A program made the translations under genes and the position numbers. 64,000 nucleotides of DNA, taken from positions 1 to 64,000 of the forward strand of contig JAKSUC010000013.1 in assembly GCA_024413595.1 (NCBI GenBank), written 5' to 3'. Below are positions 24,874 through 42,191 of the stretch, in pieces (within the stretch, counting starts at the first letter, position 1; every line of letters begins with the position of its first letter). Below the pieces are notes generated by a model. The model was not told the origin of the DNA. It was given only the letters and a program-made list of their open reading frames with translations, and made no database searches. The DNA comes from Bacteroidales bacterium. Its GTDB lineage: Bacteria > Bacteroidota > Bacteroidia > Bacteroidales > UBA3824.

Positions 24874-26964
24874 TTATAATTTTACAACATTCAAATTCTC
24901 AGAATATTTTTCTAGCATATTTAATTGATGTGTTACCAAAATTACGATATTTTCTTGAGACAATGAAAATATTATTTGCCAAATTTTATCACTCATTTGA
25001 GTATCCATAGCAGAAGTTGGTTCGTCAAAAATCATAATTTGTGGATTTTGAACCAAAATTTTTATGAAATTAACAAATTGTTTTTCGCCTCCAGAAAGTT
25101 CAATACCTGCTTCGCCAACTATTGTCATCAAAGAATTTGGCAATTCTTGAAGATAATTCAACAAATCATATTTTGTACATACTTCTATTACTTTTTGATA
25201 AATTTCTTGTGGATTGCCATTAATACCTATACAAATATTCTCTAAAATTGAACCTTCAAACATTTGAATATTTTGTGGTATTATTCCTATTTTACTTCTA
25301 TATTGAATTGTGTTAATGCTATTTAAATCTTTTCCATTAACCAATATTGAATTATTAGAAGCTAAATATGATTTTTCTAAAAGTTTACAAAGTGTTGATT
25401 TTCCACATCCACTTTTGCCAACCAAACAATTTACCTTTCCTTTGGTGAAAACTGCATCAAGATTATTGATTATTTGTTTTCGTCCAATAAAACCAAAATT
25501 TAATTTATTAAGTGATATTTCATTAATTTCTTTTAAATCATCACCTTCAAGATTTTCACTTTTTAAATCTATGGTAGAAAAAAATCTGTCAAAAGCTGTT
25601 TTAGCTTCATTAAATGAAACTGGTAATAATGATAAATTTATTATACTTGGAGATATTAATGATACTATACTTACAATAGCTATAAATTCTCCAATTGAAA
25701 CAATCTCGTTTTGATAACTTATTGCACAAAAAATCAATGATCCTAATGTAAGTACAACGTTTATAATTCCATAAAAGCAAGATAATTTTATTTGTAATTT
25801 GTCAACAACATAACTTGAACCTGTAAATTTTTGAAATAATATATTATTAACTTTTACAAAATTATCTGACATATTTCCAACTTTGATAAATCTTATATTT
25901 TTAACAGAATTTATAAATTTTGACTCTAAATTTGAATAATCAACCATCATATTTCTTTGTTTTGAAATAATTTCGCCATTTGTTTTAAGAATATAAAAAA
26001 ACGAAATTGCAAGAATCAAAATTATAATTATTGGCATTTGCCAAGCATAATAACCTGTTATACAACAACCTACCACCACTAAGAAAATATCAATTACAGT
26101 GTTACCTCCAATTATGTAGGTTACAATTGATTGAATTCTACGAATATCATTTAATCGAGCTGCCAAATCGCCTATTTTTCTTGACTCAAAAAAGCCTAGT
26201 TTCAAACTAAATAGTTTATTAAAAAATTTATCTACCAAATTTTCTTGAATCTCTTTATAGTTTTTGACAATTAATAATTGTTTTAACGCATTTAAAAGAA
26301 CCTTAACTATCAATAGCAAACATACAAATACTATTCCTGCATAAATTTTATTATAAAGATTATCAGGCAAATAACTATCTATCAATTTTTGAAAAAGTAC
26401 AGAAGTACTCATTCCTGAAACTGCAACAAGAATACTTATTAATATTAAACTAGCAAATGTTGCTTTATTGGTTTTGATATAATCTTTTAAAAATTCAACT
26501 ATCTTATTAACAGGTTTTTCTCTTTTAAAATTATTATCTAAAGGTTTTACTAATAAACATTTTTTAGTATAAATCTTTAAAAATTCATTTTCAGGAATAT
26601 TTGTAATACCTTTAAAAGGATCAAAAACTATAAACTCATTTTTTTCAAAACCACAATACACCATAAAATGTTGCAACCCATTGGGCAACAATGTATGAAC
26701 AATAATTGGGTCGTTTTGAGATTTTAAAACATCAGGTTCAATTTCATAACCTTGAGGTTCAAAACCTTGTTGTTGTGCAGTAATATAAAGACCAAGCATT
26801 GTTGTGCCTTGAGCATTTGTTCCGCTAAGTTCGCGAGCTTGTTCTAGTGAAATATTTTTGCCATAATAGCGCATAACTGTTGATAAACAAGCTACTCCAC
26901 AATCAGCAACATCTTGTTGAAAACAACCTGTTGACGCTAATTTTTTAATTTCCTTCTTTTTCAT
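24874..26964 (-). CDS. Peptidase-containing ABC transporter (PCAT), C39 peptidase fused to ABC exporter
   Basis: A 696-aa protein. Residues about 12-140 are a C39 peptidase with Cys22 in D-V-A-D-C-G-V-A-C, the upstream Gln17, His99 in L-Q-H-F-M-V-Y and Asp115 in F-D-P-F-K-G. This is the complete triad that cleaves leaders after a double glycine. A six-helix ABC membrane domain (about 165-445) and an ATPase domain follow, with Walker A G-K-S-G-C-G-K-S-T (about 515-525), signature L-S-G-G-E-K-Q (about 625) and Walker B I-M-I-F-D-E-P-T-S-A. It is the obvious processing and export enzyme for the six GG-leader peptides of the island. The start overlaps the redoxin gene by 20 nt. Confidence 0.92.
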   Translation of the reverse strand: MKKKEIKKLASTGCFQQDVADCGVACLSTVMRYYGKNISLEQARELSGTNAQGTTMLGLYITAQQQGFEPQGYEIEPDVLKSQNDPIIVHTLLPNGLQHFMVYCGFEKNEFIVFDPFKGITNIPENEFLKIYTKKCLLVKPLDNNFKREKPVNKIVEFLKDYIKTNKATFASLILISILVAVSGMSTSVLFQKLIDSYLPDNLYNKIYAGIVFVCLLLIVKVLLNALKQLLIVKNYKEIQENLVDKFFNKLFSLKLGFFESRKIGDLAARLNDIRRIQSIVTYIIGGNTVIDIFLVVVGCCITGYYAWQMPIIIILILAISFFYILKTNGEIISKQRNMMVDYSNLESKFINSVKNIRFIKVGNMSDNFVKVNNILFQKFTGSSYVVDKLQIKLSCFYGIINVVLTLGSLIFCAISYQNEIVSIGEFIAIVSIVSLISPSIINLSLLPVSFNEAKTAFDRFFSTIDLKSENLEGDDLKEINEISLNKLNFGFIGRKQIINNLDAVFTKGKVNCLVGKSGCGKSTLCKLLEKSYLASNNSILVNGKDLNSINTIQYRSKIGIIPQNIQMFEGSILENICIGINGNPQEIYQKVIEVCTKYDLLNYLQELPNSLMTIVGEAGIELSGGEKQFVNFIKILVQNPQIMIFDEPTSAMDTQMSDKIWQIIFSLSQENIVILVTHQLNMLEKYSENLNVVKL

Positions 26965-29596: not shown

Positions 29597-31018
29597 TTAG
29601 TTGACTTCACCTCTGTATATAGCAAGATTTTTATAACGATTTTGCTTTAATTTATTACACAAAAAATTGAAAAATTTATCTCGTTTTATAAAGCAAACAA
29701 AACAGATAACTATAATTGATATATTAAAATATATGTTTTTTTCAAAAATTACGCATAATAAAGTAAGTAACATAGCAAAAACAAAATATAACACTACTAT
29801 TGTATTAAAGGTTTTGTTTGTAGATGGATTGAAAATATCTACTCTAGATACACCTCCATAAAAATTTTGAATGACAATTAAAAAGTATGATATACTAATA
29901 TTCAGCATAAACATTGTTGCAGATAAGAAAAATCGTTGTGTTATAGCAGCAAATATTATTGCAACTATTGATGAGTATATCAAATTTATTTTATAATGAT
30001 TACGCAAAATTTTGTTATAATAATTATGATTCACACATGTTAAACCATCTGCGTAACAACTTAAATAGGAAAATATTGGTTGACTTGCAAGTAAAAACAT
30101 TTGAAATAGAGAAAACAAACCATACGAAAGTATTGCCATCTTAACAAAAACATGACTATGAAAAGCATCATAGTTTTGTATAATAAAAAATATACCTAAA
30201 AAGAAAGGGATAATAAAAGATTTTATTATTTTTCCTCTAAAAATATTTTTTAATATCAATTGTGAATAAATTGACAAGTTATACAACTTTAAAACACGAA
30301 CTTTTTGTGATGTTGAGTTTTCAAAAGTATTTCTACATTCATTTTTAAATTGCAAAGAATGAAAAATCCATGTTAATGCCCATAATAAAACTATTAACAA
30401 ACCTAATATGAGTGGATTTTTATATTGAAAAAATAAACTTTCAACTTCAGAAAAATAATTTAAAATAAATACTGCGCATCCTAGATAAAATGCTATATAA
30501 ATAATACTACAAAGAATTGATTTAAAACTACTTAAACTTTTAAACCAATTAAATAACGATTCTGTAAAAAGTTCAAATCCAAATATTATAATAATATATA
30601 AAAACGCATCTAAAATTGGAAAATCAGCAATAAAAATTTGCTTTACAAAATAAACAGCAAAAACTGAGAATGTTACAAAATTGCCAATTTTAAATAAGTT
30701 ACATATAAAATCGTGAATTTTTAGTCTCCACAATTTTATTGGTAAGGTAATATATGGTGTCAAGTTTGAAATATACTTTTTTTCTATGGTTATTTTTATA
30801 ATAATCTCAGCTAGCCCTGTTCCCAATAATATTGAAGTTAATGTAAAATTTATATCTTGTTTTATTATTATGTCAAGCAAAAAACCAGTAGCAAGAAAAT
30901 TTAAAATTATAAATAAATTAAAAAACAATTTAGTAATAGCAGAGACTATTTCACTTTCAAAAGACCACGTTCTACGAATATTTATAAACTTATGAAAAAA
31001 AATATTGTTTACATTCAT
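29597..31018 (-). CDS. DUF5687-like polytopic permease, copy 2
   Basis: A 473-aa, very hydrophobic protein (about twelve membrane segments). The L-T-P-Y-I-T-L-P-I-K motif lies near residue 90 and N-R-Y-K-N-L-A-I-Y-R-G-E closes the protein. It is the closest relative of the frameshifted copy at 32511-33912; both begin M-N-(V/I)-N-N-I-F and share long stretches. It is the first gene after the two peptides 31418 and 31171, separated from them by a hairpin at 31082-31127. The role is probably that of an ABC-2-type membrane subunit. Confidence 0.65.
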   Translation of the reverse strand: MNVNNIFFHKFINIRRTWSFESEIVSAITKLFFNLFIILNFLATGFLLDIIIKQDINFTLTSILLGTGLAEIIIKITIEKKYISNLTPYITLPIKLWRLKIHDFICNLFKIGNFVTFSVFAVYFVKQIFIADFPILDAFLYIIIIFGFELFTESLFNWFKSLSSFKSILCSIIYIAFYLGCAVFILNYFSEVESLFFQYKNPLILGLLIVLLWALTWIFHSLQFKNECRNTFENSTSQKVRVLKLYNLSIYSQLILKNIFRGKIIKSFIIPFFLGIFFIIQNYDAFHSHVFVKMAILSYGLFSLFQMFLLASQPIFSYLSCYADGLTCVNHNYYNKILRNHYKINLIYSSIVAIIFAAITQRFFLSATMFMLNISISYFLIVIQNFYGGVSRVDIFNPSTNKTFNTIVVLYFVFAMLLTLLCVIFEKNIYFNISIIVICFVCFIKRDKFFNFLCNKLKQNRYKNLAIYRGEVN

Positions 31019-31081
31019 TATTATAATTTTTTGAGATTTTTTATAACCTTAATCTTTAACACAATAGGATTTGTTATTAAT

Positions 31082-31127
31082 AGAGTGAGAAAAATTATTC
31101 AGTATTCGATTATTTTAAACTCACCCT
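31082..31127 (-). promoter_or_regulatory. Hairpin between peptide genes and permease gene
   Basis: On the minus strand AGGGTGAG (31127-31120) can pair with CTCACTCT (31089-31082), eight pairs with one G-U, around a 30-nt loop. It lacks a T-run, so it more likely stabilises the peptide mRNA end or attenuates read-through than fully terminates. A comparable hairpin sits after the three-peptide cluster at 38201-38233. Confidence 0.4.
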
Positions 31128-31170
31128 AAATAATTATAAGCTACTTAAATTAAAGTAATACTATTTTGAC

Positions 31171-31353
31171 TTATGCACAATAATAAGCAATAGATGCAGA
31201 TGCTGCACCATATCCTCCAATAGCACATACAGCACCGATACCTCCAGATGCGATACACAAACCAACTATGGTAAATCCCCATAAAATGTAAGCAGTTGTA
31301 CAACTATCGCCTGCTTCTATATTTTGCATTTCAATTATATTTAATTCTTTCAT
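31171..31353 (-). CDS. Double-glycine-leader precursor peptide 1 (EAG variant)
   Basis: A 60-aa precursor. The 15-residue leader MKELNIIEMQNIEAG fits the island consensus M-K-x-(L/I)-x-(L/I/V)-x-x-M-x-x-(V/I)-x-(G/A)-G, with Ala in place of the first Gly. The 45-residue core is hydrophobic and Gly/Ala-rich (S-G-G-I-G-A in the middle) with four cysteines, one near the start (D-S-C) and one next to last (Y-Y-C-A). This matches bacteriocin-like peptides processed by C39 exporters. It is cotranscribed with precursor 2, 64 nt upstream. A disulfide between the ends is possible. No modification enzyme of the radical-SAM or lanthipeptide type is nearby. Confidence 0.85.
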   Translation of the reverse strand: MKELNIIEMQNIEAGDSCTTAYILWGFTIVGLCIASGGIGAVCAIGGYGAASASIAYYCA

Positions 31354-31417
31354 AATTTTTTGTTTTTGTTATAATAATAAAATTCTAATATATTACTAGT
31401 GTTCTTTAATTACTTCA

Positions 31418-31606
31418 TTAAGCACAGCTATCAAAAACCCCATAAGCACTTGCCCAAAAGCATGCTGCTGTTCCTATCGCAGCCCCTATTCCTCCTGAAA
31501 AAGCTATTAGACCAACTTCGCTACAAGCAAAACCAGCAATTGCGAAAGCACAACCCCAATCGCCTCCTTCAACGGTTACCATTTCTTTTAATTCTAATGT
31601 TTTCAT
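31418..31606 (-). CDS. Double-glycine-leader precursor peptide 2
   Basis: A 62-aa precursor with the 15-residue leader MKTLELKEMVTVEGG. The 47-residue core starts D-W-G-C, contains F-S-G-G-I-G-A-A-I-G (glycine-zipper spacing) and ends D-S-C-A, with four cysteines. It shares S-G-G-I-G-A and the near-terminal Cys-Ala with precursor 1. It is the first gene of a unit starting at the promoter at 31753, behind the conserved leader RNA. Two-peptide bacteriocin pairing with precursor 1 is a reasonable hypothesis because they are adjacent and similar in size. Confidence 0.88.
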   Translation of the reverse strand: MKTLELKEMVTVEGGDWGCAFAIAGFACSEVGLIAFSGGIGAAIGTAACFWASAYGVFDSCA

Positions 31607-31628
31607 TTTATAATTTTAAAAAAATTAT

Positions 31629-31718
31629 CTCCTACTCTATTTACGCCTTTTTGGAATACTGCGTTCAAATGTTAGCTTTATATTCTATAAACCAAAGCTA
31701 ATAATATTTACAGAATAT
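31629..31718 (-). promoter_or_regulatory. Conserved peptide-operon leader RNA, copy A
   Basis: This 5' leader precedes precursor 2. The 3' block (31629-31665; minus strand GCAGTATTCC, then AAAAAGGC, then TAGAGTAGGA) recurs before the other two peptide units. Upstream of it two helices are possible: helix 1 pairs 31718-31707 with 31691-31680 (12 bp, one G-U), and helix 2 pairs 31701-31694 with 31679-31672 (8 bp perfect), using the helix 1 loop. With no spacer between helix 1 and helix 2 strands they are mutually exclusive or form a tight pseudoknot. Copy B keeps helix 2 with a compensatory A-U to U-A change. A cis-regulatory switch is inferred. Confidence 0.7.
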
Positions 31719-31752
31719 CATTTGAAAAATTGTTCTCTTTAATTGAACATTG

Positions 31753-31760
31753 CAAATGTA
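31753..31760 (-). promoter_or_regulatory. Promoter -7 box TACATTTG for peptides 1 and 2
   Basis: An exact TAnnTTTG match on the minus strand. It predicts a transcript starting near 31746, so the whole leader A is transcribed before the peptide start at 31606. Confidence 0.6.
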
Positions 31761-31816
31761 AAACAGATAAGTAAAAATAATGACAATTTTTGACGAAAAA
31801 ACCGAACAAAAATGTA

Positions 31817-32035
31817 TTATTTTTCAAACATTTGTGTTTCAATTTCAGCAGATAGGTCTTTAAAGAAATTATAATTCAAAACCTCACAAATTTCTTTTAA
31901 TAATATTGTATCAATACTATTACTTTTAAATAAATCGTAACATTTTGAACGAGAACAATTAATCTTTTTACAAAACCAAGTTACACTTTGACCTTGATTT
32001 TCTAGACGAGTTTTAATAATTTGACCCATTTCCAT
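31817..32035 (-). CDS. Small helix-turn-helix DNA-binding protein
   Basis: A 72-aa protein made almost entirely of a Cro/C1-type (XRE) helix-turn-helix: I-K-T-R-L-E-N-Q-G-Q-S-V-T-W-F-C-K-K-I-N-C-S-R-S-K-C-Y-D-L-F, then a third helix and L-N-Y-N-F-F at the end, the pattern of short Bacteroidota regulators. It is the only regulator inside the island, between the 270-nt RNA and the promoter of peptides 1 and 2. It could regulate the peptide promoters; that is inference from position. Confidence 0.75.
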   Translation of the reverse strand: MEMGQIIKTRLENQGQSVTWFCKKINCSRSKCYDLFKSNSIDTILLKEICEVLNYNFFKDLSAEIETQMFEK

Positions 32036-32087
32036 AATTTAGCGGTATATATTAGTAAACATCTGACGAATTCCAAATCAGATAGTT

Positions 32088-32358
32088 AAAAAAAAAGCGT
32101 GGAATTCTTATTTTGCCCGTTCCACGCATTGAGGTCTTCGCACTACCCGAAACAGTAGAAACGAGCAACGAATAACCACGCTGTATGTATGGCAGACATA
32201 CAATTAGCTGTATGTCTGAAAAATACACACTTGCGGGCATTAAACATTGCTTTGTTTCTGACTGTTTCTTGAAAGTTGCGAAGTTTCAATGCGTCAAAAA
32301 CATAGCGTAAATAAACGCCTAAAAATATATTATTCCATAGCGATAAATTCGCTCGGAA
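32088..32358 (-). ncRNA. Independent structured ~270-nt RNA, class unproven (6S-like possible)
   Basis: A minus-strand transcription unit with a consensus promoter (32365-32372) and a strong terminator (stem 32120-32127 with 32097-32104, T-run 32096-32088). It is more GC-rich than its surroundings. Helices visible: a 10-bp perfect hairpin (32193-32202 with 32209-32218), extended by GUGUGUAU with AUACAUAC; a CUAC/GUAG hairpin near 32150; and a GCCCG/CGGGC pairing (32234-32238 with 32115-32119) that would close the whole 3' half. Open frames through it run in conflicting phases and show no protein family. A Bacteroidota 6S-type RNA is one candidate; I cannot confirm it. Confidence 0.65.
32097..32127 (-). 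terminator. Terminator of the intergenic RNA
   Basis: GCGTGGAA (32127-32120) pairs with TTCCACGC (32104-32097) around a 15-nt loop, followed by nine T on the minus strand. Confidence 0.85.
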
Positions 32359-32364
32359 CTTGCG

Positions 32365-32372
32365 CAAATATA
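32365..32372 (-). promoter_or_regulatory. Promoter -7 box TATATTTG for the intergenic RNA
   Basis: A perfect TAnnTTTG match with a TTTG behind a T-run 17 nt further upstream, slightly short of the usual spacing. Confidence 0.65.
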
Positions 32373-32426
32373 AATAAATTAATTTAACACAAAAAAAAAT
32401 TATTAATAATTTAACATTGTTTATTA

Positions 32427-32457
32427 ATAAAAAAACCGATACAAAAAATTGCATCGG
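32427..32457 (-). terminator. Terminator after frameshifted permease gene
   Basis: CCGATGC (32457-32451) pairs with GTATCGG (32442-32436), seven pairs with one G-U, then a T-run on the minus strand. It ends the transcript of 32511-35354. Confidence 0.75.
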
Positions 32458-32510
32458 CTTTAATTTATATATTTATTAACAATTATATAGATAAATTATA
32501 TTTACAACCA

Positions 32511-33912
32511 TTATTTATTTACTTCACCACGATATTTTGAAAGATTTTTGTAGCGATCTTTATTTAATTTGTTACATATTTTTTGTATAAAATAATCTTT
32601 ATTAAATAAAATCATTATACTAAAAATATTGATTATTATATTAAAATATATATTATGTTCAAATAATACACAAAAATATGTTAAATTTATTGCTACAATT
32701 ACGAATATAAAATGAAATATATTCAAACCTGATTTATTTGTTAACAATTTGTTTATTTCGTATCGATATACATTAGTTATATTTTGAATTGCATACAACA
32801 AATAAAATAAACTAATGTTCAACATAAATATTGATATTACAATTATAAATCTTTGAATTAGAGCACAAAGTATTATTGTAACAATTGATGAGTAAACAAA
32901 ATTAATTTTATAATGATTTTGAAAAATTTGGTAATAAAAATTTTTATTTAAACATACTAAACCATCTATATAACAAGATAAATATGAAAAAATTGGCTGA
33001 CTAACAAACAAATACATTTGAAAAAGAATAAATAAACCTATAGAAAACATACTAAATTTTAAAAAATCAGACGGCAGATTATTAAAATAATAATTTAGAA
33101 TAAAAACTATTCCAAGTAATAAATGAAGAAATATTGTTCTAGTAGTTTTTCCTCTTAAATTATTTTTTAAAATTAATTGTTTATAACACGACAATTTTGA
33201 TAATTTAAAGCTATGATTTTTTACAAACGATTTGTTTTCAAGTTGATTTCTTAATTCATTATTAAATTGCAAACTATGAAAAATCCACATAAAACCATAA
33301 ACTAAAACAATTAATAAACTTATTGTTAAAGGATTTATATATTGATAAAAACAGTTTTCTATTTCAGTAAAATCTCTTAACACAAATCCAAAAACTGATA
33401 TATAAAATGTAATATATAAAACAACACAAATATTTGATTTTAAAGCATTAAAACTTTTAAACCAATTGAACAAAGCCTCATTAAGCAATTCAAATCCAAA
33501 TATTAACAATATAAATAAAGAAGTATCTAAAACAGAATAATTATTTATTACAATTTGTTTAATAAAATATGTACTAAAAAATGTAAAAACAATAAAATTA
33601 CTTATTTTAAATAAATTACGAATAAAATTATGAATTTTAAGTTTATATTTTTTTATAGGTAAAGTGATATATGGAGCAATATCACAAAATTTATTATTTT
33701 CAAAAGTAATTTTTAAAATTATTTCAGTAACTCCCAACGTGAAAAAGAAAATTACCAAAAAAAAATTTGATTGCTGACTATCTTTAAAAATAATATCAAA
33801 TACTCACCCCAAAATTAAATAACTTAATAAAATTATTATTAATAATATTATCAAACGACCATATTCTGCGAATTTTTATAAATGTATGTAAAAATATATT
33901 ATTTATATTCAT
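32511..33912 (-). pseudogene. DUF5687-like permease, copy 3, frameshifted near its start
   Basis: The long frame begins only at 33758, but the first 20 residues of a relative of copy 2 (M-N-I-N-N-I-F-L-H-T-F-I-K-I-R-R-I-W-S-F) are encoded from the ATG at 33912 in another frame, which hits a stop at 33796. The 33912-32511 span is one base more than a multiple of three and would give about 467 aa, close to the 473 aa of copy 2. One extra base near 33800 therefore explains the break. The rest is intact, including the I-A-P-Y-I-T-L-P-I-K motif and the closing R-Y-K-N-L-S-K-Y-R-G-E. It may be a recent pseudogene, a phase-variable gene or a sequencing error. Confidence 0.75.
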
Positions 33913-33929
33913 ATATTATAAAAATATAT

Positions 33930-35354
33930 CTATTTTCTTAAATCTTTTAAAATTTCGTAACGGTTTTTATAAAAACTTTCCGACAATTTGTTTATCCATA
34001 ATTTTTGTATTATTAAAAAAACTATAGATATAAATGATATTGAAATAATTATAAATAATCCAAATTGATAAATACCATGTGCATTTAAAATTCCAGTAAT
34101 TACCGACATCATTGAAAATAATATAGAATAAATAAACATAATAGTCATCGTATAAGAGTCGACACTAGAATTTGAAGATAAAATATCAAATCTAGCACAT
34201 TGTTTAAATTTTATAGCCAAATTGCTTATAAAAGGAATAAATGATAAATTTATCAAAAACGGAGCTAACATCTTATAATCTTTAAATATTAGCAACAATA
34301 TTAATAAAAGTATAAATTCATAAACAAAATTTATTTTTAAAAAGCTATTCATCATTGATTTAAAAAACATTTTATCTCTTAAAAAAATGCCGTCCATAAA
34401 TAATGAAAGTTTTGTTATCAAAGGATTTAGTATATAATTTAACCCAAAAAATATAAAAGCATAACCAAACAAAGTTAAATCAAAATCTTTTGGTAATAAA
34501 TCTGATTTAGATACAATAACAAAACATATTCCCATAATTGGTAAAACAATTAATGTAGATATTATATTTTTACTTCTTAAACAAAGTGTAATTAATAGTT
34601 TTGTATATTTATTTGAATTAAATAAGTTGAAACTATTTATAGTTTGATTTTCTGTTGATATTTGATTTAATTGTCTTGATAATTGAATATAATTAATTTT
34701 ATAAATCAAAAATATTTCAATTACTATTATAAATAAACATACATAAATGTTAGAAAAATAATATTTACAACTATTTACAAATAATTCGTTAGTGTTTAAT
34801 AAATAAACAATTGCAACAATAACACAACACAAAGCAGTTAAAGAAATTAATTCAAACGATTTTTTTAATGTTTTAAAATATTTAATAATAATAGTCAACA
34901 AAAAAGAAGTGAATAAAATAGTTAGAGAATAAATTAAAATTTGCGCAACATTTAATATTCCTAAAAATCCCAATTTAATAAAAAGTGCAGTAAAAAAGCT
35001 AAAACACCAAAAATTATATAATTCAACACAATCAAGCAAAGTTCTTGAATTAAAAATCAACCTTTTTTTAATTGGTAAAAGAAGATAACTAACCAAATTT
35101 TTAGAATTTGATTGAGCCATTCCAATTTTAAAAATAATTTCACTAATAGCATTTATATAAAAAGTTAATGTGGACAACTGTTTTATTTCGGTCCAAAATG
35201 AATTTGTTGAATTAGTATAAAAAGTAAACCCAGAAATAACTGACGATATTAGCAAAAAAATATAAAATATATTAAGATTTTTTTGCACAACATCGCTCTT
35301 GTCCAATCTTTTCTTTTCTAATTTTTGATGTTCAAAAAACTTCTTGAAAAACAT
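33930..35354 (-). CDS. DUF5687-like polytopic permease, copy 4
   Basis: A 474-aa protein with about twelve membrane segments, preceded by a basic cytoplasmic N-terminus (K-K-F-F-E-H-Q-K-L-E-K-K-R). It keeps the family markers L-V-S-Y-L-L-L-P-I-K (about residue 90) and K-N-R-Y-E-I-L-K-D-L-R-K at the end, but is the most divergent of the five. It lies 17 nt before copy 3, and a 253-nt gap without visible gene separates it from the redoxin gene upstream. Confidence 0.6.
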   Translation of the reverse strand: MFFKKFFEHQKLEKKRLDKSDVVQKNLNIFYIFLLISSVISGFTFYTNSTNSFWTEIKQLSTLTFYINAISEIIFKIGMAQSNSKNLVSYLLLPIKKRLIFNSRTLLDCVELYNFWCFSFFTALFIKLGFLGILNVAQILIYSLTILFTSFLLTIIIKYFKTLKKSFELISLTALCCVIVAIVYLLNTNELFVNSCKYYFSNIYVCLFIIVIEIFLIYKINYIQLSRQLNQISTENQTINSFNLFNSNKYTKLLITLCLRSKNIISTLIVLPIMGICFVIVSKSDLLPKDFDLTLFGYAFIFFGLNYILNPLITKLSLFMDGIFLRDKMFFKSMMNSFLKINFVYEFILLLILLLIFKDYKMLAPFLINLSFIPFISNLAIKFKQCARFDILSSNSSVDSYTMTIMFIYSILFSMMSVITGILNAHGIYQFGLFIIISISFISIVFLIIQKLWINKLSESFYKNRYEILKDLRK

Positions 35355-35607
35355 ATTTATAAATTATTAATATTATTTAAATTACTAATATTTTCAAATA
35401 AATTTTTTTAGTAATTTAAACAAAACAAATATATAATATTTTAGCAAAAAGTTTCTAAAATTTATCAAAAAAAATAGCACAAAAATGTATTAATTTTAGT
35501 ACAAAATAATTTGCAAAAAAATCTAAAACAACTTTTGAAACTTTAAATTATACACAACAAACAATTACCATGGCATTCATTTTATTTATTTACAAAAAAT
35601 AAAAACT

Positions 35608-36105
35608 TTATTCCTCATTCAATAAAACTTTTAAATCAAAATATCCTATACGTTTTTGTTTCAGATGTCCTTTGTTAAAATAAAAAGTTGTTGGTATCGT
35701 AACAATATTTAAAACTTCATTCCAAACATACGAAGAATCATAAATTATATTTACTTCTTTTAATGATTGAAAATTAACAGTTTGCAACATTGAATCAATA
35801 TCATTTTTATGGGCATACGACACCAAATCAACTACTAAATTATCAGTTTTTAACTTTGACAATAAATTTAGTTCACCATGACAAAAATCACATTCAGGGT
35901 GAAAATATAATATCAACAAATGTTCATTATCAACAATTTGTGATGCCAAAGATATTGAATCTCTATTATTATAAATATAAAGGTTTGCATATTTATCATT
36001 GTTTTTACCATTAATCAATTTAATAGAAATAAAAACAATGCCTACGGCTATAAAAATAACCATAATCAATGCAAACACTTTAATTTTTAATTTACTCGGT
36101 TGCAT
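35608..36105 (-). CDS. Membrane-anchored thioredoxin-like protein (CDFC), copy 2
   Basis: A 165-aa protein with an N-terminal anchor and a periplasmic thioredoxin-like domain. Y-F-H-P-E-C-D-F-C carries the CxxC pair, and V-T-I-P-T-T gives the cis-proline loop. It is a paralogue of 26945-27436 (both have S-(S/Y)-A-H-(S/K) after the second strand and a closing Q-K-R-(R/I)-(T/G)-G/Y segment). The ATG at 36105 is preferred over one three codons upstream; either overlaps the end of the Yip1-like gene. Probable disulfide or thiol handling of the Cys-containing peptides, by context. Confidence 0.7.
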   Translation of the reverse strand: MQPSKLKIKVFALIMVIFIAVGIVFISIKLINGKNNDKYANLYIYNNRDSISLASQIVDNEHLLILYFHPECDFCHGELNLLSKLKTDNLVVDLVSYAHKNDIDSMLQTVNFQSLKEVNIIYDSSYVWNEVLNIVTIPTTFYFNKGHLKQKRIGYFDLKVLLNEE

Positions 36106-36724
36106 ATAAAGCATAAAAAGAAGTACATACTATAAACAATACCAACACTAAACCATAGCTAAGAAGAACCATTTGACAAGAATTTCCAAACGAACGTTTG
36201 AGATTTTTACTTAGCATATACGAAAGTAATAATATATATATCACTTCAAAAATATTAACAGCACTTAAAGGTATCAACAACCATTGATCAAGTTTTTGAG
36301 GATCAAAAAACGAAACTAACGAAAATGGTGTCAACGTTGTATCAATATATGTTGATGGAGGATTTATAAATGCTAAATTAATATTTTTAACTAATGCTGT
36401 TATTAAATTTACAACTTCGGCAACTATAACTGATGATAAAATATCTTTATAATTTTGCTTTTCAACTAAATAATAACCAATATATATTATTAAAGCAATT
36501 AAAAAAACTTTACCAAGAACCGTTAATGAAGTTATAATAATTCCTAAAAGCATAGAACTATTCAAAGAATCATACAGCTTTTTAGCAATTTCCTCATCTC
36601 CGTTTATTACACCTTCGTATATAACATTAATATTGTCTAATGTTAATACATATTTTAAATTTAACAAATAAATGACGATATAAGCGATTGTTATACCAAT
36701 TAATGCAAAGATATTTTTTTTCAT
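36092..36724 (-). CDS. Yip1-like multi-pass membrane protein, copy 2
   Basis: A 210-aa protein with about five membrane segments and the shared block L-V-S-F-F-D-P-Q-K-L-D-Q-W-L-L-I-P-L-S-A-V-N-I-F-E-V-I-Y-I-L-L-L-S-Y (given by pattern; about 140-175). Same relative position as copy 1: behind a permease gene (22 nt) and overlapping the redoxin gene, showing that the three-gene block was duplicated as a unit. Confidence 0.55.
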   Translation of the reverse strand: MKKNIFALIGITIAYIVIYLLNLKYVLTLDNINVIYEGVINGDEEIAKKLYDSLNSSMLLGIIITSLTVLGKVFLIALIIYIGYYLVEKQNYKDILSSVIVAEVVNLITALVKNINLAFINPPSTYIDTTLTPFSLVSFFDPQKLDQWLLIPLSAVNIFEVIYILLLSYMLSKNLKRSFGNSCQMVLLSYGLVLVLFIVCTSFYALYATE

Positions 36725-36746
36725 ATTAAATTACATATATTAAACA

Positions 36747-38186
36747 TTAATATTCATTTCGGAACCCAGACATATTTTCGTAACGATGTTGCATAAACTT
36801 GCGAAAAATGTTTCGAATCCAATGTTTTGATGTCAACAAAAATATAATTGAAATAAGAGAAAATACAATACAAGTAATTTCCTTATTAAAAAAACTATAC
36901 AAAACAATAAATGATGCTACAATTAAAATTGCTTCAAAACCACATAAAACAACTCTGAAATCAACAGAATTTGTTTGAGAAAATGATCTTAACAAATCTA
37001 CTCGTTTTTTGGCATAAATAATTCCATTTAAATAAACATATTCAAATAACGAAACAGACAATCCACAAGTTATAAACAATAGATAGTCTTGATAAATTAA
37101 TATGTATATCAATGTAATTATAGCAGAACATATAATCCATATTTTATGATAAGCAATAGCCATTTTATAAGTAAATTCATTAACATTAGTCTGCAATCCA
37201 TCAAATGCGTAAGAGGCATAATAGGTAAACGGACTAAATCCTGAAATAAAAATAATTATAGAACCAAAAACAAACATAGGAGCAAACCATGTTGGCCAAT
37301 AGCCTTGTGATGCCACCCAAAATCCTAATATAAATGTCAATTGAAACAATATAAGAGGAATCAAACCTGTTTTATTTCGAAAAAACATTTGTAGCGATAG
37401 TTTAACTATGGGATTTAATCCATTTAAAGCATAATTTGAGGCATTTAAAACAGAGAAATGATTTTGTGTTTTCATTTCTGATATTTTATAAAACTCACGT
37501 CTACATTGCGAAAGTGCCAAAATATATGCAATAAACATTGTTAAAATAGCTAACATATACACAAAAAATGTATTTCTCATAAACATTAATAAACTTTGAG
37601 GTACAATGTCGAAATTAAAAGCAAGATATACAAATAATATGAATATCAAACTTAAACAAATAACAAAAACTGTCACTTGAAATTTTACAAAAGATTTTAC
37701 AAAACGAACCAAAGCACTATTAATAAGTGAAAATGAAAACGTTAACAATGTAAAACCTGATGCTGCAAACACAGAAATACGTCCACAAATTACCATTTTA
37801 ATAAAAAAAGGCAATAAGGCAACTAATCCTATAAAATTTAAAACAGAAAATACACTATTTTTCAATTCTACATTAAAAACTTGCCTTAGAGGAATTGGTA
37901 AAGTGATGTAAGGTATAACATTATAAATTTTAGATGATTTTAAAATCAATTTTAAAAAAAAATCAATCAACCATCCTAATAAAGCCAAATAAAAGAAATT
38001 TAGAGATAAAGGCATCTCTGGTGCAATTGAAATCAAGATTTGGTCTAAAAACAAACCAAAAACAATAGCATAAACAAACATTGCCACATATCCAATAGAT
38101 TTTAATATGCGAGCTATGATTGTATCATCGTAGAATTTACTACGTTGAAGAGATAACCGAAAATGATTAATAATATTATTTGTCAT
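36747..38186 (-). CDS. DUF5687-like polytopic permease, copy 5
   Basis: A 479-aa protein with about twelve membrane segments, V-I-P-Y-I-T-L-P-I-P near residue 90 and Q-H-R-Y-E-N-M-S-G-F-R-N at the end. An upstream ATG at 38213 would put the start inside a hairpin (38201-38233); the ATG at 38186 gives M-T-N-N-I-I-N-H-F, matching the N-termini of copies 1 and 2. It is the first gene after the three-peptide cluster and heads the second permease/Yip1/redoxin block. Confidence 0.65.
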   Translation of the reverse strand: MTNNIINHFRLSLQRSKFYDDTIIARILKSIGYVAMFVYAIVFGLFLDQILISIAPEMPLSLNFFYLALLGWLIDFFLKLILKSSKIYNVIPYITLPIPLRQVFNVELKNSVFSVLNFIGLVALLPFFIKMVICGRISVFAASGFTLLTFSFSLINSALVRFVKSFVKFQVTVFVICLSLIFILFVYLAFNFDIVPQSLLMFMRNTFFVYMLAILTMFIAYILALSQCRREFYKISEMKTQNHFSVLNASNYALNGLNPIVKLSLQMFFRNKTGLIPLILFQLTFILGFWVASQGYWPTWFAPMFVFGSIIIFISGFSPFTYYASYAFDGLQTNVNEFTYKMAIAYHKIWIICSAIITLIYILIYQDYLLFITCGLSVSLFEYVYLNGIIYAKKRVDLLRSFSQTNSVDFRVVLCGFEAILIVASFIVLYSFFNKEITCIVFSLISIIFLLTSKHWIRNIFRKFMQHRYENMSGFRNEY

Positions 38187-38200
38187 TATTTTGAGATAAT

Positions 38201-38233
38201 ACTGAGTCGCCATAACAAATATAACGACTCAGT
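38201..38233 (-). promoter_or_regulatory. Hairpin between three-peptide cluster and permease gene
   Basis: ACTGAGTCG (38233-38225) pairs perfectly with CGACTCAGT (38209-38201), 9 bp, with a 15-nt loop and no T-run. It probably attenuates or protects the abundant peptide mRNA, so that the permease block is expressed less. Confidence 0.5.
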
Positions 38234-38285
38234 AATAAAACTTTGTTTATGGAGAAAAATGACCAAAAACAATTTATGAATTAGG

Positions 38286-38477
38286 CTAGTAGAGTTGATA
38301 AGCTGCATAACCAGCACAAGCAACGCCACAAATTCCTGCTACAACAGCAGCACTACCACCAGTAGGGATAGAAAATGCAGCAATAATACCTGTTGATGCA
38401 CCTAAACCAATACAAAAACCGTCAAACCAATTGCCTCCACAAACATTTGACATTTCAGAAACATTTAAACTTTTCAT
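38286..38477 (-). CDS. Double-glycine-leader precursor peptide 3
   Basis: A 63-aa precursor with leader MKSLNVSEMSNVCGG (15 residues). The 48-residue core starts N-W-F-D-G-F-C, is rich in Gly, Ala and Ile, has three cysteines and ends Y-Q-L-Y rather than Cys-Ala. It is the last of three tandem peptide genes (33 nt after precursor 4). No similarity to named bacteriocins could be read by eye. Confidence 0.85.
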   Translation of the reverse strand: MKSLNVSEMSNVCGGNWFDGFCIGLGASTGIIAAFSIPTGGSAAVVAGICGVACAGYAAYQLY

Positions 38478-38510
38478 AATTAAATAAATTAAAAATTAAT
38501 AGATTATTTA

Positions 38511-38705
38511 TTAACTAACTAAACCTCCAATTGCAACTCCTACACATGTAGGACCAAAAATGGCTGCAGAAACACCCCAACCTATAACTGGAACAGCTGC
38601 ACATGCAAGCATAGCTGCACATGCAATTCCTGAAGTTGTCCAAATAGCATCGCTACTAACTCCGCCATCTACAAATTGCATTTGTTCAATAGTGATTTTT
38701 TTCAT
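38511..38705 (-). CDS. Double-glycine-leader precursor peptide 4
   Basis: A 64-aa precursor with leader MKKITIEQMQFVDGG. The 49-residue core contains S-G-I-A-C, then A-M-L-A-C-A, then G-W-(G/A)-V-S-A-A-(I/V)-F-G-P-T-C and ends A-I-G-G-L-V-S. It is a near duplicate of precursor 5 next door: same leader pattern, same three cysteine positions, same F-G-P-T-C motif, with a few core residues added after GG. A recent tandem duplication that is diverging. Confidence 0.88.
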   Translation of the reverse strand: MKKITIEQMQFVDGGVSSDAIWTTSGIACAAMLACAAVPVIGWGVSAAIFGPTCVGVAIGGLVS

Positions 38706-38736
38706 GTTTTAAATCTTTAATTATACAAAATTTATA

Positions 38737-38916
38737 TTATGCTAAACCACCAATTGCTGTTCCTATGCATGTTGGACCAAAAACAGCAGCTGATACTGCC
38801 CATCCAACACCAGGAATAATAGCACAACCTAACATTGCACCACAAGCAATTCCTGATATAGTCCAAATGTCTCCACCTTCTACTGATTGCATTTGTTCAA
38901 TACTAATTTTTTTCAT
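38737..38916 (-). CDS. Double-glycine-leader precursor peptide 5 (59 aa)
   Basis: Read directly from the minus strand from ATG at 38916 to TAA at 38737, 59 aa. The leader is MKKISIEQMQSVEGG. The 44-residue core has D-I-W-T-I-S-G-I-A-C, then A-M-L-G-C-A, then W-A-V-S-A-A-V-F-G-P-T-C and ends G-G-L-A. It is the partner of precursor 4 (32 nt apart) and the first gene of the three-peptide unit behind leader copy B. A complementary frame on the plus strand here is a shadow. Confidence 0.9.
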   Translation of the reverse strand: MKKISIEQMQSVEGGDIWTISGIACGAMLGCAIIPGVGWAVSAAVFGPTCIGTAIGGLA

Positions 38917-38937
38917 ATCTTTTATTTATTTTAATAT

Positions 38938-39030
38938 TTTCCTACTCTAGTTATGCCTTTTCGGATTACTGCACAACAGAAAGTTTGCCTTATATTCTGA
39001 AAACTAAAAGCAAATAAGATTTACAGAATA
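38938..39030 (-). promoter_or_regulatory. Conserved peptide-operon leader RNA, copy B
   Basis: Same layout as copy A. The 3' block (38938-38975; GCAGTAATCC, GAAAAGGC, TAGAGTAGGA) lies about 25 nt before the start of precursor 5. Helix 1 pairs 39030-39023 with 38999-38992 (8 bp perfect, plus three more pairs after a mismatch). Helix 2 pairs 39013-39006 with 38991-38984 (8 pairs, one G-U). Relative to copy A, helix 2 has a compensatory change at its third pair, which supports selection for pairing. Confidence 0.7.
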
Positions 39031-39048
39031 TCTTTCTATTTTTATATA

Positions 39049-39175
39049 ATCAATTGATAATAAATACAAACAAAAAACAAGTAATAATATAATATTTGAG
39101 CAAGTTTTATTTAGAGTTGCAAGAGTAACAGGTATTAATACGTTAATAAAAAAATAAGGTTCTATTTATTTAATA
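39049..39175 (-). repeat. Duplicated upstream element, copy 1
   Basis: About 127 bp, strongly similar to 39735-39861; both lie just upstream of a leader RNA. Shared landmarks on the minus strand are ACTTGCTCAAAT, TATTATTACTTGT, TTTGTTTGT and the near palindrome ATCAATTGAT. It probably contains the promoter or operator of the peptide units, although no perfect TAnnTTTG box is present. Confidence 0.75.
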
Positions 39176-39370
39176 TTATTTTAATATTTGATATTTATTT
39201 TTTAGATGTATAAAATTAATTAATTTACAGATAATTAATAACTAAAAAAAGAACATATAATAAAAAAAATCGTTATTATTTTAATTTTAATATTATGAAT
39301 GGTTAATTTTTATCTATATTTTATGAAAAACATCATCAATATAAATATTTATGAATTTTATTATTGATAA
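39176..39370. other. Intergenic AT-rich spacer
   Basis: Between the duplicated element and the terminator of the precursor 6 unit. No frame, hairpin or promoter that I can support. Confidence 0.5.
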
Positions 39371-39412
39371 ATAAAAAGTGTTTGTCAAATTAAGTATAAA
39401 TTTGACAAACAC
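39371..39412 (-). terminator. Strong terminator after precursor 6
   Basis: A 14-bp perfect stem (39399-39412 with 39378-39391), 7-nt loop, then TTTTTAT on the minus strand. It makes precursor 6 a self-contained single-peptide unit. Confidence 0.85.
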
Positions 39413-39425
39413 ATATTTTTTTAAA

Positions 39426-39608
39426 CTAAGCACAAACAATACCAGCAATACCCATACCTATTGCAGTAGGAGCAACAATTATGGCAGCAGGACCGCCAAA
39501 AAGTCCAACTACTGTACAAGCAAGTCCTATATAAGCAATTGCTTTGTTTTGTGCTTCGGTGCAACCACCTTCAATGTTTTGCATTACGTTTAAATCAAGT
39601 TTTTTCAT
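39426..39608 (-). CDS. Double-glycine-leader precursor peptide 6
   Basis: A 60-aa precursor with leader MKKLDLNVMQNIEGG. The 45-residue core begins with Cys directly after GG (C-T-E-A-Q-N-K) and ends I-V-C-A. A third cysteine lies at core position 16, and a Gly/Ala/Ile-rich stretch with G-M-G-I-A-G forms the middle. Cysteines at both ends suggest a disulfide-closed ring, as with precursors 1 and 2. It is transcribed alone: leader copy C upstream, strong terminator downstream. Confidence 0.88.
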   Translation of the reverse strand: MKKLDLNVMQNIEGGCTEAQNKAIAYIGLACTVVGLFGGPAAIIVAPTAIGMGIAGIVCA

Positions 39609-39631
39609 TTTTTTATAAATTAAATTATTCT

Positions 39632-39720
39632 TTTCCTACTCTATTAATGCCTTTTCGGAATCCTGCACAATTAAAATTAATTTATACTATAATTATTAAT
39701 TAAAAATATCTACTAATTAT
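39632..39720 (-). promoter_or_regulatory. Conserved peptide-operon leader RNA, copy C
   Basis: The 3' block (39632-39668; GCAGGATTCC, GAAAAGGC, TAGAGTAGGA) is nearly identical to copies A and B and lies about 24 nt before precursor 6. The 5' half is diverged and A/T-only but can still form similar nested and competing pairings (AATTAAT with ATTAATT; ATA-ATT with AAT-TAT). The conserved block is certain; the helices here are tentative. Confidence 0.6.
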
Positions 39721-39734
39721 AATTTTTATTATAA

Positions 39735-39861
39735 ATCAAATTGATAACAAACAAAAGAAATTACAAGTAATAATATTAAATTTGAGCAAGTTTTATTTTA
39801 GAATTGCAAGTAAAGCATCTATTTATACGTTAAATAAAAAAGAAGGTTCTGTTTATTTAAT
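39735..39861 (-). repeat. Duplicated upstream element, copy 2
   Basis: Partner of 39049-39175. Here the palindrome reads ATCAA-ATTGAT on the plus strand. A short frame in copy 1 is not kept in copy 2, which argues for a regulatory rather than coding role. Confidence 0.75.
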
Positions 39862-40063
39862 GTATTTTTATTTTTTTTATGTTAATTTTAAAGGAGCATA
39901 TTTTGTTCTTTGTTAAACAAAACAATCTTTAATTATACTAATTTTATTACAAATAAAATATTTGTTGAATAATTTTATTCAACCGTAAAAACTAATTTAT
40001 TAAAAAAAATCTATATTTATTTTATAATAAACACAACCATGCGACTCAACTATTAATTATTAA
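39862..40063. other. Intergenic AT-rich spacer
   Basis: Between the duplicated element and the TPR gene end. No gene or site I can support; it presumably holds the 3' end of the upstream seven-gene transcript. Confidence 0.5.
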
Positions 40064-41011
40064 TTAATTGAAATATTTGATAAAGTATTCAAATTTAGGT
40101 TTTACAATATAATTAATTTCTTTAATAATTATTGCATTTTTTCTGAATTTTATACCGTAAGTAAATTCAAATCTAAAAGGTAGTTTAAATATTATACTAG
40201 AATTATTTAATTGTTGTTTACCTTGTTTATAACGTTTAATAGCAGGAATCAAAGGATCTGAAGAATCTAAATATTCAGCAATATTGATATTACGTTCAAA
40301 ATTGATAGTGTCGCCATTTGCTAAATTAATAAAAGCTAAATAAAAATAAGGTCTATTCAAATTAGGTAAAAGTTCAATAGTTTTATTAAAATATAATTGA
40401 GCTTCATCAAAATTGCATTCACTAAGATAAATTTTTCCTAATTTTGCCATTGTTTGAGCTTCATTGTTATTCGACAATTTATTTAACAGATTATTTTTTG
40501 CCATTGAAACAGCATTTTTACAAATAATTGAATCGTTTTTGATTAAATTTTGAAAATATTCACTTTCTATAAAATCTGGTTTATTCTCTATTGTAGTTGA
40601 TAATATTTTAGTTAAAGTCAATGTATCATTTTTTTTGAGACAAATTTCACTCTGTATAAAACTACATTCAGGCGAAATATAATTATCACCTAAAATTTCT
40701 TTGGCTTTGTCGTTGTTACCAGTGCAAAAATTTAATAATCCTGCACAATATTTCATATAAGGTTCGTTTGGATAAAGATTATAGGCTTTTTCGAATTGTT
40801 CTTTAGCCAATAAAACATTTTCTTTATTGTTTTCTTCTGCATTAAAACTCAAAGAATCATTTTCTAAAAGTTTTAGTCCAGAATTTATAATATAAGCCAC
40901 ATCTTTATCTTTAGAAATTGGCTTTGCTAAATTTAATACAAATAAAATAAGAATATAAGCCAAAGTTGTCGACAATAATAATACGTAAACTTTATTATTT
41001 TTCATTTTCAT
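40064..41011 (-). CDS. Membrane-anchored TPR-like protein
   Basis: A 315-aa protein with one N-terminal membrane helix (about 8-28) followed by helical repeats. Two segments fit tetratricopeptide patterns: A-K-E-Q-F-E-K-A-Y-N-L-Y-P-N-E-P (about 67-82) and L-G-K-I-Y-L-S-E-C-N-F-D-E-A-Q-L-Y-F-N-K (about 195-214). Its start overlaps the end of the O-antigen-ligase-like gene by 17 nt, so they are translationally coupled and probably form one complex. Function in a peptide locus is unknown. Confidence 0.65.
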   Translation of the reverse strand: MKMKNNKVYVLLLSTTLAYILILFVLNLAKPISKDKDVAYIINSGLKLLENDSLSFNAEENNKENVLLAKEQFEKAYNLYPNEPYMKYCAGLLNFCTGNNDKAKEILGDNYISPECSFIQSEICLKKNDTLTLTKILSTTIENKPDFIESEYFQNLIKNDSIICKNAVSMAKNNLLNKLSNNNEAQTMAKLGKIYLSECNFDEAQLYFNKTIELLPNLNRPYFYLAFINLANGDTINFERNINIAEYLDSSDPLIPAIKRYKQGKQQLNNSSIIFKLPFRFEFTYGIKFRKNAIIIKEINYIVKPKFEYFIKYFN

Positions 41012-42191
41012 CGTTGTTTAAAGTAAAACAAATCATAATAAAAGATAGCAAAACGATTGCACTAATAATAGTAAAAGTACCAAAAGTAAATTCTCTTATA
41101 GCAAGAGCCACTAAACCTGAAGAAGAGACTATTGTAATAATATTGCCTTTAAAAATTTTTTTTCTGATATTAATAAAATAAAAACAAGCCATAGCAACAA
41201 AAAATATTAAACCAAACAATCCTCTTTCAACATAAAGTTGCAGAAACGAATTTGTACTCGAAACAGAAACCATGGTGTCGTAGTTGGTTAAATTGTTAAG
41301 GTTTTTGATAGCGAAATTTCCACTTCCGCAACCAAACCAAGAAAAGTCTTCGGAATAAAGATTTAGTTTATTTAATCTAGAATCGAAACTGCGTTTTTGA
41401 CTTTCTGTTTTGTTAAATGCAAATGTAGTGGCAACAGAATTTCTCATAGTAGAATTAGTAATAACAATTGCAAAAGAGAATCCTAAAGCTAAGATTATAT
41501 ATATTAAAATATTTTTTGCTTGTGATTTATTAAAAATTGCAGTTGTTAATATTATCAACATTAAAAATACAACTAATGCTAGATATACACCTCTAGAATA
41601 GGTTGTAATGATGCAAAATATGCTTAAAACGAAATTTGTGATATACCAAATTTTAATTTTTTTGTGATTTTCGAATATAATAGAAATTAAAATTAAAGGT
41701 AAAAAACACAGCATAAGAGTTGCAAAATTGTTGCAGTGCATAAACAAAGGAGAATAAATTAATTTAAAGTTAGTTAATTCATTGTATCCAAATTCAGTAA
41801 AAGTAGTTTGGTGACTGATGTAAATAAAACATGTAATAATACATATTATTGAAATAAAACCATTAAATATGTATTTTACAATATTTTTTTGATATTGAGA
41901 AATAAAAAATTTTCCATCTGTAATTAAGTAAAAAGCTAATAAAACAGCTAAATCGATATTAAAACTTAAAGAATTAGGTATATAATCGCTAAATATAATT
42001 CCAAATAAAGAATATATTAAAAACGATATAATAACTATAATTTTAGATTTAGATAGAATAATTTTTTTTTCAGTTTTTTTGTTGTAAAAAATAAAAAATG
42101 GAATTAAAATTATAAGTAATTTTATAGAAAATATTCCTAACAATAATGAAGCGCAAATTAACACACAATATGCAAATTCTTGTTTACTCAT
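40995..42191 (-). CDS. O-antigen ligase/polymerase-like membrane protein
   Basis: A 398-aa protein with about eleven hydrophobic segments. The region T-Y-S-R-G-V-Y-L-A (about 197-205), a long periplasmic loop with R-x-N-K-L...F-G-C-G-S-G-N-F, and T-N-S-F-L-Q-L-Y-V-E-R-G-L-F-G-L (about 308-323) match the Wzy_C/O-antigen ligase family, whose members join sugar chains to lipid A or proteins. No glycosyltransferase or polysaccharide genes surround it. It lies between a Yip1-like gene (10 nt) and its coupled TPR partner, so it may instead modify or tether the exported peptides; that is speculation. Confidence 0.7.
   Translation of the reverse strand: MSKQEFAYCVLICASLLLGIFSIKLLIILIPFFIFYNKKTEKKIILSKSKIIVIISFLIYSLFGIIFSDYIPNSLSFNIDLAVLLAFYLITDGKFFISQYQKNIVKYIFNGFISIICIITCFIYISHQTTFTEFGYNELTNFKLIYSPLFMHCNNFATLMLCFLPLILISIIFENHKKIKIWYITNFVLSIFCIITTYSRGVYLALVVFLMLIILTTAIFNKSQAKNILIYIILALGFSFAIVITNSTMRNSVATTFAFNKTESQKRSFDSRLNKLNLYSEDFSWFGCGSGNFAIKNLNNLTNYDTMVSVSSTNSFLQLYVERGLFGLIFFVAMACFYFINIRKKIFKGNIITIVSSSGLVALAIREFTFGTFTIISAIVLLSFIMICFTLNNDENEK

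Follow-up and report, generated by a model that had tools for sequence, protein, structure and literature searches.

DUF805b RNAs precede three double-glycine peptide operons

Three leaders on the minus strand of a Bacteroidales contig, each standing before an operon of double-glycine-leader peptides, carry the DUF805b RNA of Rfam (RF02914). On balance we favor the reading that they are copies in 5' untranslated regions (UTRs) acting when translation of exported products is initiated, with an additional fold in two of them, formed by helices P0 to P2, probably tuning the output. Positions refer to the window, the whole 64,000-nucleotide stretch of DNA that was analyzed, and the leaders are called A, B, and C in order of position.

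The block GCAG..CC.AAAAGGC....TAGAGTAGGA is common to all three leaders and ends 24 (A), 24 (B), and 26 (C) nt before the ATG of a double-glycine peptide open reading frame (ORF), and the pattern AAAAGGC-N-TAGAGTAGGA occurs at these three places only in the 3.94-Mb genome. The original prediction had placed the block correctly before the precursor starts, in both position and distance, and had held that it matched no class that could be named. On this last point it erred: an Rfam scan identified the block as DUF805b, ruling out an unknown RNA class. Judged against the Rfam gathering cutoff for RF02914 of 35.6 bits, copy C (39633 to 39668) was the sole copy in the window to reach it, at 35.9 bits by cmscan, and copies A (31629 to 31664; 28.4 bits; E value of 1.2e-4, with a genome-wide E value of 9.5e-6) and B (38939 to 38974; 28.1 bits; E value of 1.5e-4) fell below it. 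A and B align with C and match the full RF02914 model end to end, at E values of ~1e-4 in 12 kb. Three other Rfam matches (Corona_pk3, CRISPR-DR61, and mir-2253) were below their own cutoffs and were taken as chance, and the scan of the leaders returned no riboswitch match.

In layout each leader resembles DUF805b: as a putative 5'-UTR copy, it would present, ~22 nt ahead of the start codon, a short hairpin that covaries and has CCGAAAA at the end of its 12-nt loop, followed by AGAGTAGG. The hairpin stem is CGC/GCG in A and TGC/GCA in B and C, its first pair being C-G in A and U-A in the other two, and AGAGTAGG follows at 31638 to 31631 (A), 38948 to 38941 (B), and 39642 to 39635 (C), with the ATG at 31606, 38916, and 39608, respectively. 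AGAGUAGG, expected of DUF805b 3' of the hairpin and ~20 to 25 nt before the start codon, is found there at the three distances given above. In contrast to the family, A and B score below the cutoff and have the added upstream helices P0, P1, and P2; the fourth, closing hairpin pair is an A.G mismatch, marked by cmscan in all three copies; and the loop of copy A reads CCAAAAA.

The genes that follow the leaders are all on the minus strand, and the first product of each operon aligned with the other peptides. Operon A begins with a 62-amino-acid (aa) double-glycine-leader peptide (31418 to 31606), followed by a second peptide (31171 to 31353). Operon B begins with a 59-aa double-glycine-leader peptide (38737 to 38916) that resembles the bacteriocin_sig family TIGR01847 at a score below cutoff, with more peptides at 38511 to 38705 and 38286 to 38477, and leader C precedes a single gene for a 60-aa double-glycine-leader peptide (39426 to 39608). 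A peptidase C39 ABC transporter encoded in the same cluster (24874 to 26964, minus strand; Pfam PF03412 at 1.7e-30, PF00664, and PF00005) would cleave and export double-glycine peptides. Similar peptides were found in 7 other genomes, with DUF805b at L110 only among the loci read.

Several other genes share this neighborhood. DUF5687 membrane proteins adjoin the peptide genes on the minus strand, at 29597 to 31018 (below the Pfam cutoff) and 36747 to 38213 (above it), and further ORFs resembling these lie at 32511 to 33758 and 33930 to 35354. Directly upstream of leader A is a small 72-aa minus-strand ORF with helix-turn-helix (HTH)-like sequence (31817 to 32035), for which no Pfam match was found at an E value of 0.01.

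Spacing and downstream genes of DUF805b across genomes

The wider distribution of DUF805b rules out a leader dedicated to peptides. Of two further strong copies in the same genome (L004 and L006), one stands before the gene for a 102-aa protein and the other before a lipoprotein-like gene, and at a strict threshold the phylum-wide set to which the window copies belong extended to 40 of the 59 relatives and, across the class, to 196 of 395 genomes, with none in 14 control genomes. About half of the class genomes thus carry DUF805b, with varied genes downstream. Four genomes (G501, G594, G603, and G614) have 13 to 16 copies each at an E value of 1e-6, a possible exported-protein regulon.

Ninety elements, including the three window copies, were read together with their downstream genes. 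Hairpin positions 2 and 3 had standard pairs in 96% and 90% of these elements, with GC, CG, AT, and TA exchanging, and pairing dropped to 28 to 76% when one strand was slid by 1 or 2 bases. In the relatives, the distance from the end of GAGTAGG to the ATG had a median of 22.5 nt, with 84% of elements within 18 to 28 nt, and a replicate on 26 further separate loci again gave a median of 22.5 nt.

Genes downstream of DUF805b appear to encode exported products at about three times the rate of neighboring ORFs. A home-made signal-peptide and lipobox heuristic called 51 of 87 downstream products exported, and among the remaining ORFs of these stretches it called 24 of 123 (Fisher P = 7e-9); the replicate gave 12 of 26 downstream and 5 of 40 neighboring ORFs (P = 0.004). 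The fixed spacing points to action at translation initiation, and the spacing and the exported excess together suggest an element at the initiation of exported products, double-glycine peptides included.

The expectation that DUF805b matches would sit before double-glycine leader genes held at individual loci, six of them in other genomes (L021, L041, L110, L135, L150, and L160), and did not extend to a significant excess, with 8 of 106 downstream ORFs compared to 10 of 312 controls under a loose pattern (P = 0.09). At L135, a second double-glycine ORF lies near the one preceded by DUF805b, likely a peptide cluster of an unrelated family.

DUF805 and DUF805b were reportedly described in a 2017 survey by Weinberg and colleagues. 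Our literature search returned no paper describing DUF805b, and Rfam types it merely as cis-regulatory.

An upstream domain with covarying, crossing helices in copies A and B

Directly upstream of the block, both A and B have a genuine conserved fold; their alignment revealed exactly three conserved helices of at least 6 bp, each 8 bp long. In copy A the domain occupies 31664 to 31726 (minus strand), with P0 at 31726 to 31719/31671 to 31664, P1 at 31718 to 31711/31687 to 31680, and P2 at 31701 to 31694/31679 to 31672. In copy B it occupies 38975 to 39040 (minus strand), with P0 at 39040 to 39032/38983 to 38975, P1 at 39031 to 39024/38999 to 38992, and P2 at 39014 to 39007/38991 to 38984. P0 is the outer stem (TTCAAATG/CATTTGAA in A and AATAGAAAG/CTTTCTGTT in B), and its inclusion lengthens the element, which then reaches 31726 in A and 39040 in B; P1 is ATATTCTG/YAGAATAT; and P2, which crosses P1 in both copies, is TTAGCTTT/AAAGCTAA in A and TTTGCTTT/AAGGCAAA in B. 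The helix order P0a-P1a-P2a-P1b-P2b-P0b is that of a pseudoknot, in which bases of the P1 loop form P2 with the stretch joining P1 to P0. No bases separate P0a from P1a, or P1b, P2b, and P0b from one another, and the 3' end of the domain is flush with the DUF805b hairpin in both copies.

The strongest covariation in the domain is that of P0, which differs between A and B by four double changes and keeps its pairing over a 48-nt gap. P2 differs by one double change, an A-U to U-A swap, and one single change, U-A to U-G. In 20,000 shuffles of the A/B alignment columns, a helix with four double changes never arose, and two crossing helices totaling 16 bp arose in 5e-5 of trials. Fold z scores were −3.8 for A, −2.2 for B, and −0.4 for C. 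These results support the original prediction of a structured cis-RNA leader common to the three peptide units with a compensatory change; its two helices in A and B, now P1 and P2, are both present and do cross, and the second keeps its pairing through the changes it described, but it had overlooked the outer stem P0 and the hairpin of the block.

The upstream segment of copy C (39669 to 39730, minus strand) is a weaker case. It has a possible P0 at 39730 to 39721/39678 to 39669, with 9 of 10 pairs formed, and a possible P1 at 39720 to 39714/39695 to 39689. Both consist of AT pairs only and are of weak significance, since 4% of dinucleotide shuffles do as well; P2 was looked for in this copy and is absent. 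B (38975 to 39190) and C (39669 to 39880) have in common ~180 nt of upstream DNA on the minus strand, AACGTAT..ACTTGCTCAAAT..TTATCAATT, and therefore arose by duplication. Copy A lacks this flank yet keeps the domain, so the likeness of the A and B domains exceeds what a shared flank would give.

Evidence for the upstream domain comes from two good copies, A and B. A covariance model of the pair (R1; two training sequences, strict filters) was run on 147 relatives and on 395 genomes of the class and matched the window's own genome only. A P1-based pattern scan gave 11 matches in genome contigs and 1 in viral contigs, none of them followed by the DUF805b block, and a structure descriptor run over the collected DUF805b loci matched A and B alone. 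Cross-species conservation of an aptamer-like upstream domain was thus not seen in these genomes.

The closest known arrangement is that of DUF805 (RF03081), in the same clan (CL00115), which shares the two-part layout of a 5' hairpin followed by a DUF805b hairpin and GAGUAGG. Its 5' hairpin, GUGG-10 nt-CCAC, is joined to the second by an 11-nt linker, whereas the upstream domain described here has a longer P0/P1 stem that P2 crosses and hardly any linker; RF03081 gave no match in 30000 to 42000 at E values up to 5, and the GUGG/CCAC hairpin was not found there. By sequence, the two-hairpin layout is already known from DUF805, and the present upstream stem differs from it. In one relative's stretch (L099), two DUF805 RNAs lie 300 nt apart, at 98 to 167 and 469 to 536.

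Alternative explanations for the upstream domain

The domain may instead be static, a pseudoknot or stem-loop that binds a protein or shields the 5' end from nucleases without switching, although we consider this somewhat unlikely. The helix order is that of a loop-bulge pseudoknot enclosed by P0, whose four covarying pairs and whose position flush with the DUF805b hairpin fit such a structure. However, P1b directly abuts P2b, so that full P1 and P2 would be strained if formed together, and copy C has no P2. Leaders with H-type or loop-bulge pseudoknots include, for example, the preQ1 and SAM-II riboswitches. The domain resembles these in having crossing helices within a 5' leader, but it shares no consensus with them, has no P1b-P2b linker, is closed by an outer stem, and has no known ligand.

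The crossing of P1 and P2 and the contiguity of P1b, P2b, and P0b also suit a bistable switch or riboswitch, in which a ligand, a protein, or an exported peptide would choose between P0+P1 and P0+P2 and so expose or hide the DUF805b hairpin and AGAGTAGG; we regard this as unlikely. P1a and its loop are nearly invariant between A and B, whereas P0 differs, a pattern that a recognition site would show, and the TATTCTG segment of P1a can form 7 to 8 bp with TAGAGTA of the block in both copies. That competing pairing is missing from C, however, as is P2, which is seen in two copies only. A nearest-neighbor model predicts energies for P0+P1 of −12.3 (A) and −11.2 (B) kcal/mol and for P0+P2 of −8.9 (A) and −10.1 (B) kcal/mol, favoring P0+P1 by about 1 to 3.5 kcal/mol, and from the helix order P1 would form first during transcription. 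The failure to find a homolog of the domain in the relatives and class genomes also counts against a switch.

Even less likely are DNA-level operator or promoter dyads or duplication leftovers in place of RNA structure: the duplication of B and C, the HTH-like ORF upstream of leader A, and, inside domain A, a TAGCTTTG box that looks like the −7 element of Bacteroidota would be consistent with them, but the P0 pairing survives its four double changes, which no shuffle reproduced, B has not retained the box, and A has the domain despite lacking the B flank. Promoter scans stayed near shuffled background and placed no clear start site.

Proposed role of the leaders

In the reading that we favor, the whole element would be transcribed, and DUF805b would act at translation initiation of exported proteins, probably by presenting its hairpin and AGAGTAGG, immediately upstream of the ribosome footprint, to the ribosome or a trans-acting factor. 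In the window, the operons that it would drive are the three encoding double-glycine, bacteriocin-like peptides. Within leaders A and B, the P0/P1 stem-loop with its crossing P2 would replace the 5' GUGG/CCAC hairpin of DUF805, and P0 to P2 would probably tune the same output.

A bolder proposal, which we consider improbable and hold more tentatively than any of the alternatives above, is that DUF805b is a shared output module for exported products and that A and B carry a clip-on crossing-helix switch, enclosed by P0, that gates the hairpin and AGAGTAGG. This switch may respond, for example, to the exported peptide, to the transporter of that peptide, or to some regulator. If this were true, different sensory domains would be joined to DUF805b as a common output module; if the upstream part is just a stem-loop, it would be an ordinary finding. 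The peptide-export context is new here, as is the clip-on folded domain, which turned up in none of the relatives searched, and the cluster is a convenient test case. For the family as a whole, the spacing and the excess of exported products suggest a concrete function for DUF805b, that of an element acting at the initiation step for proteins and peptides that Bacteroidota export.
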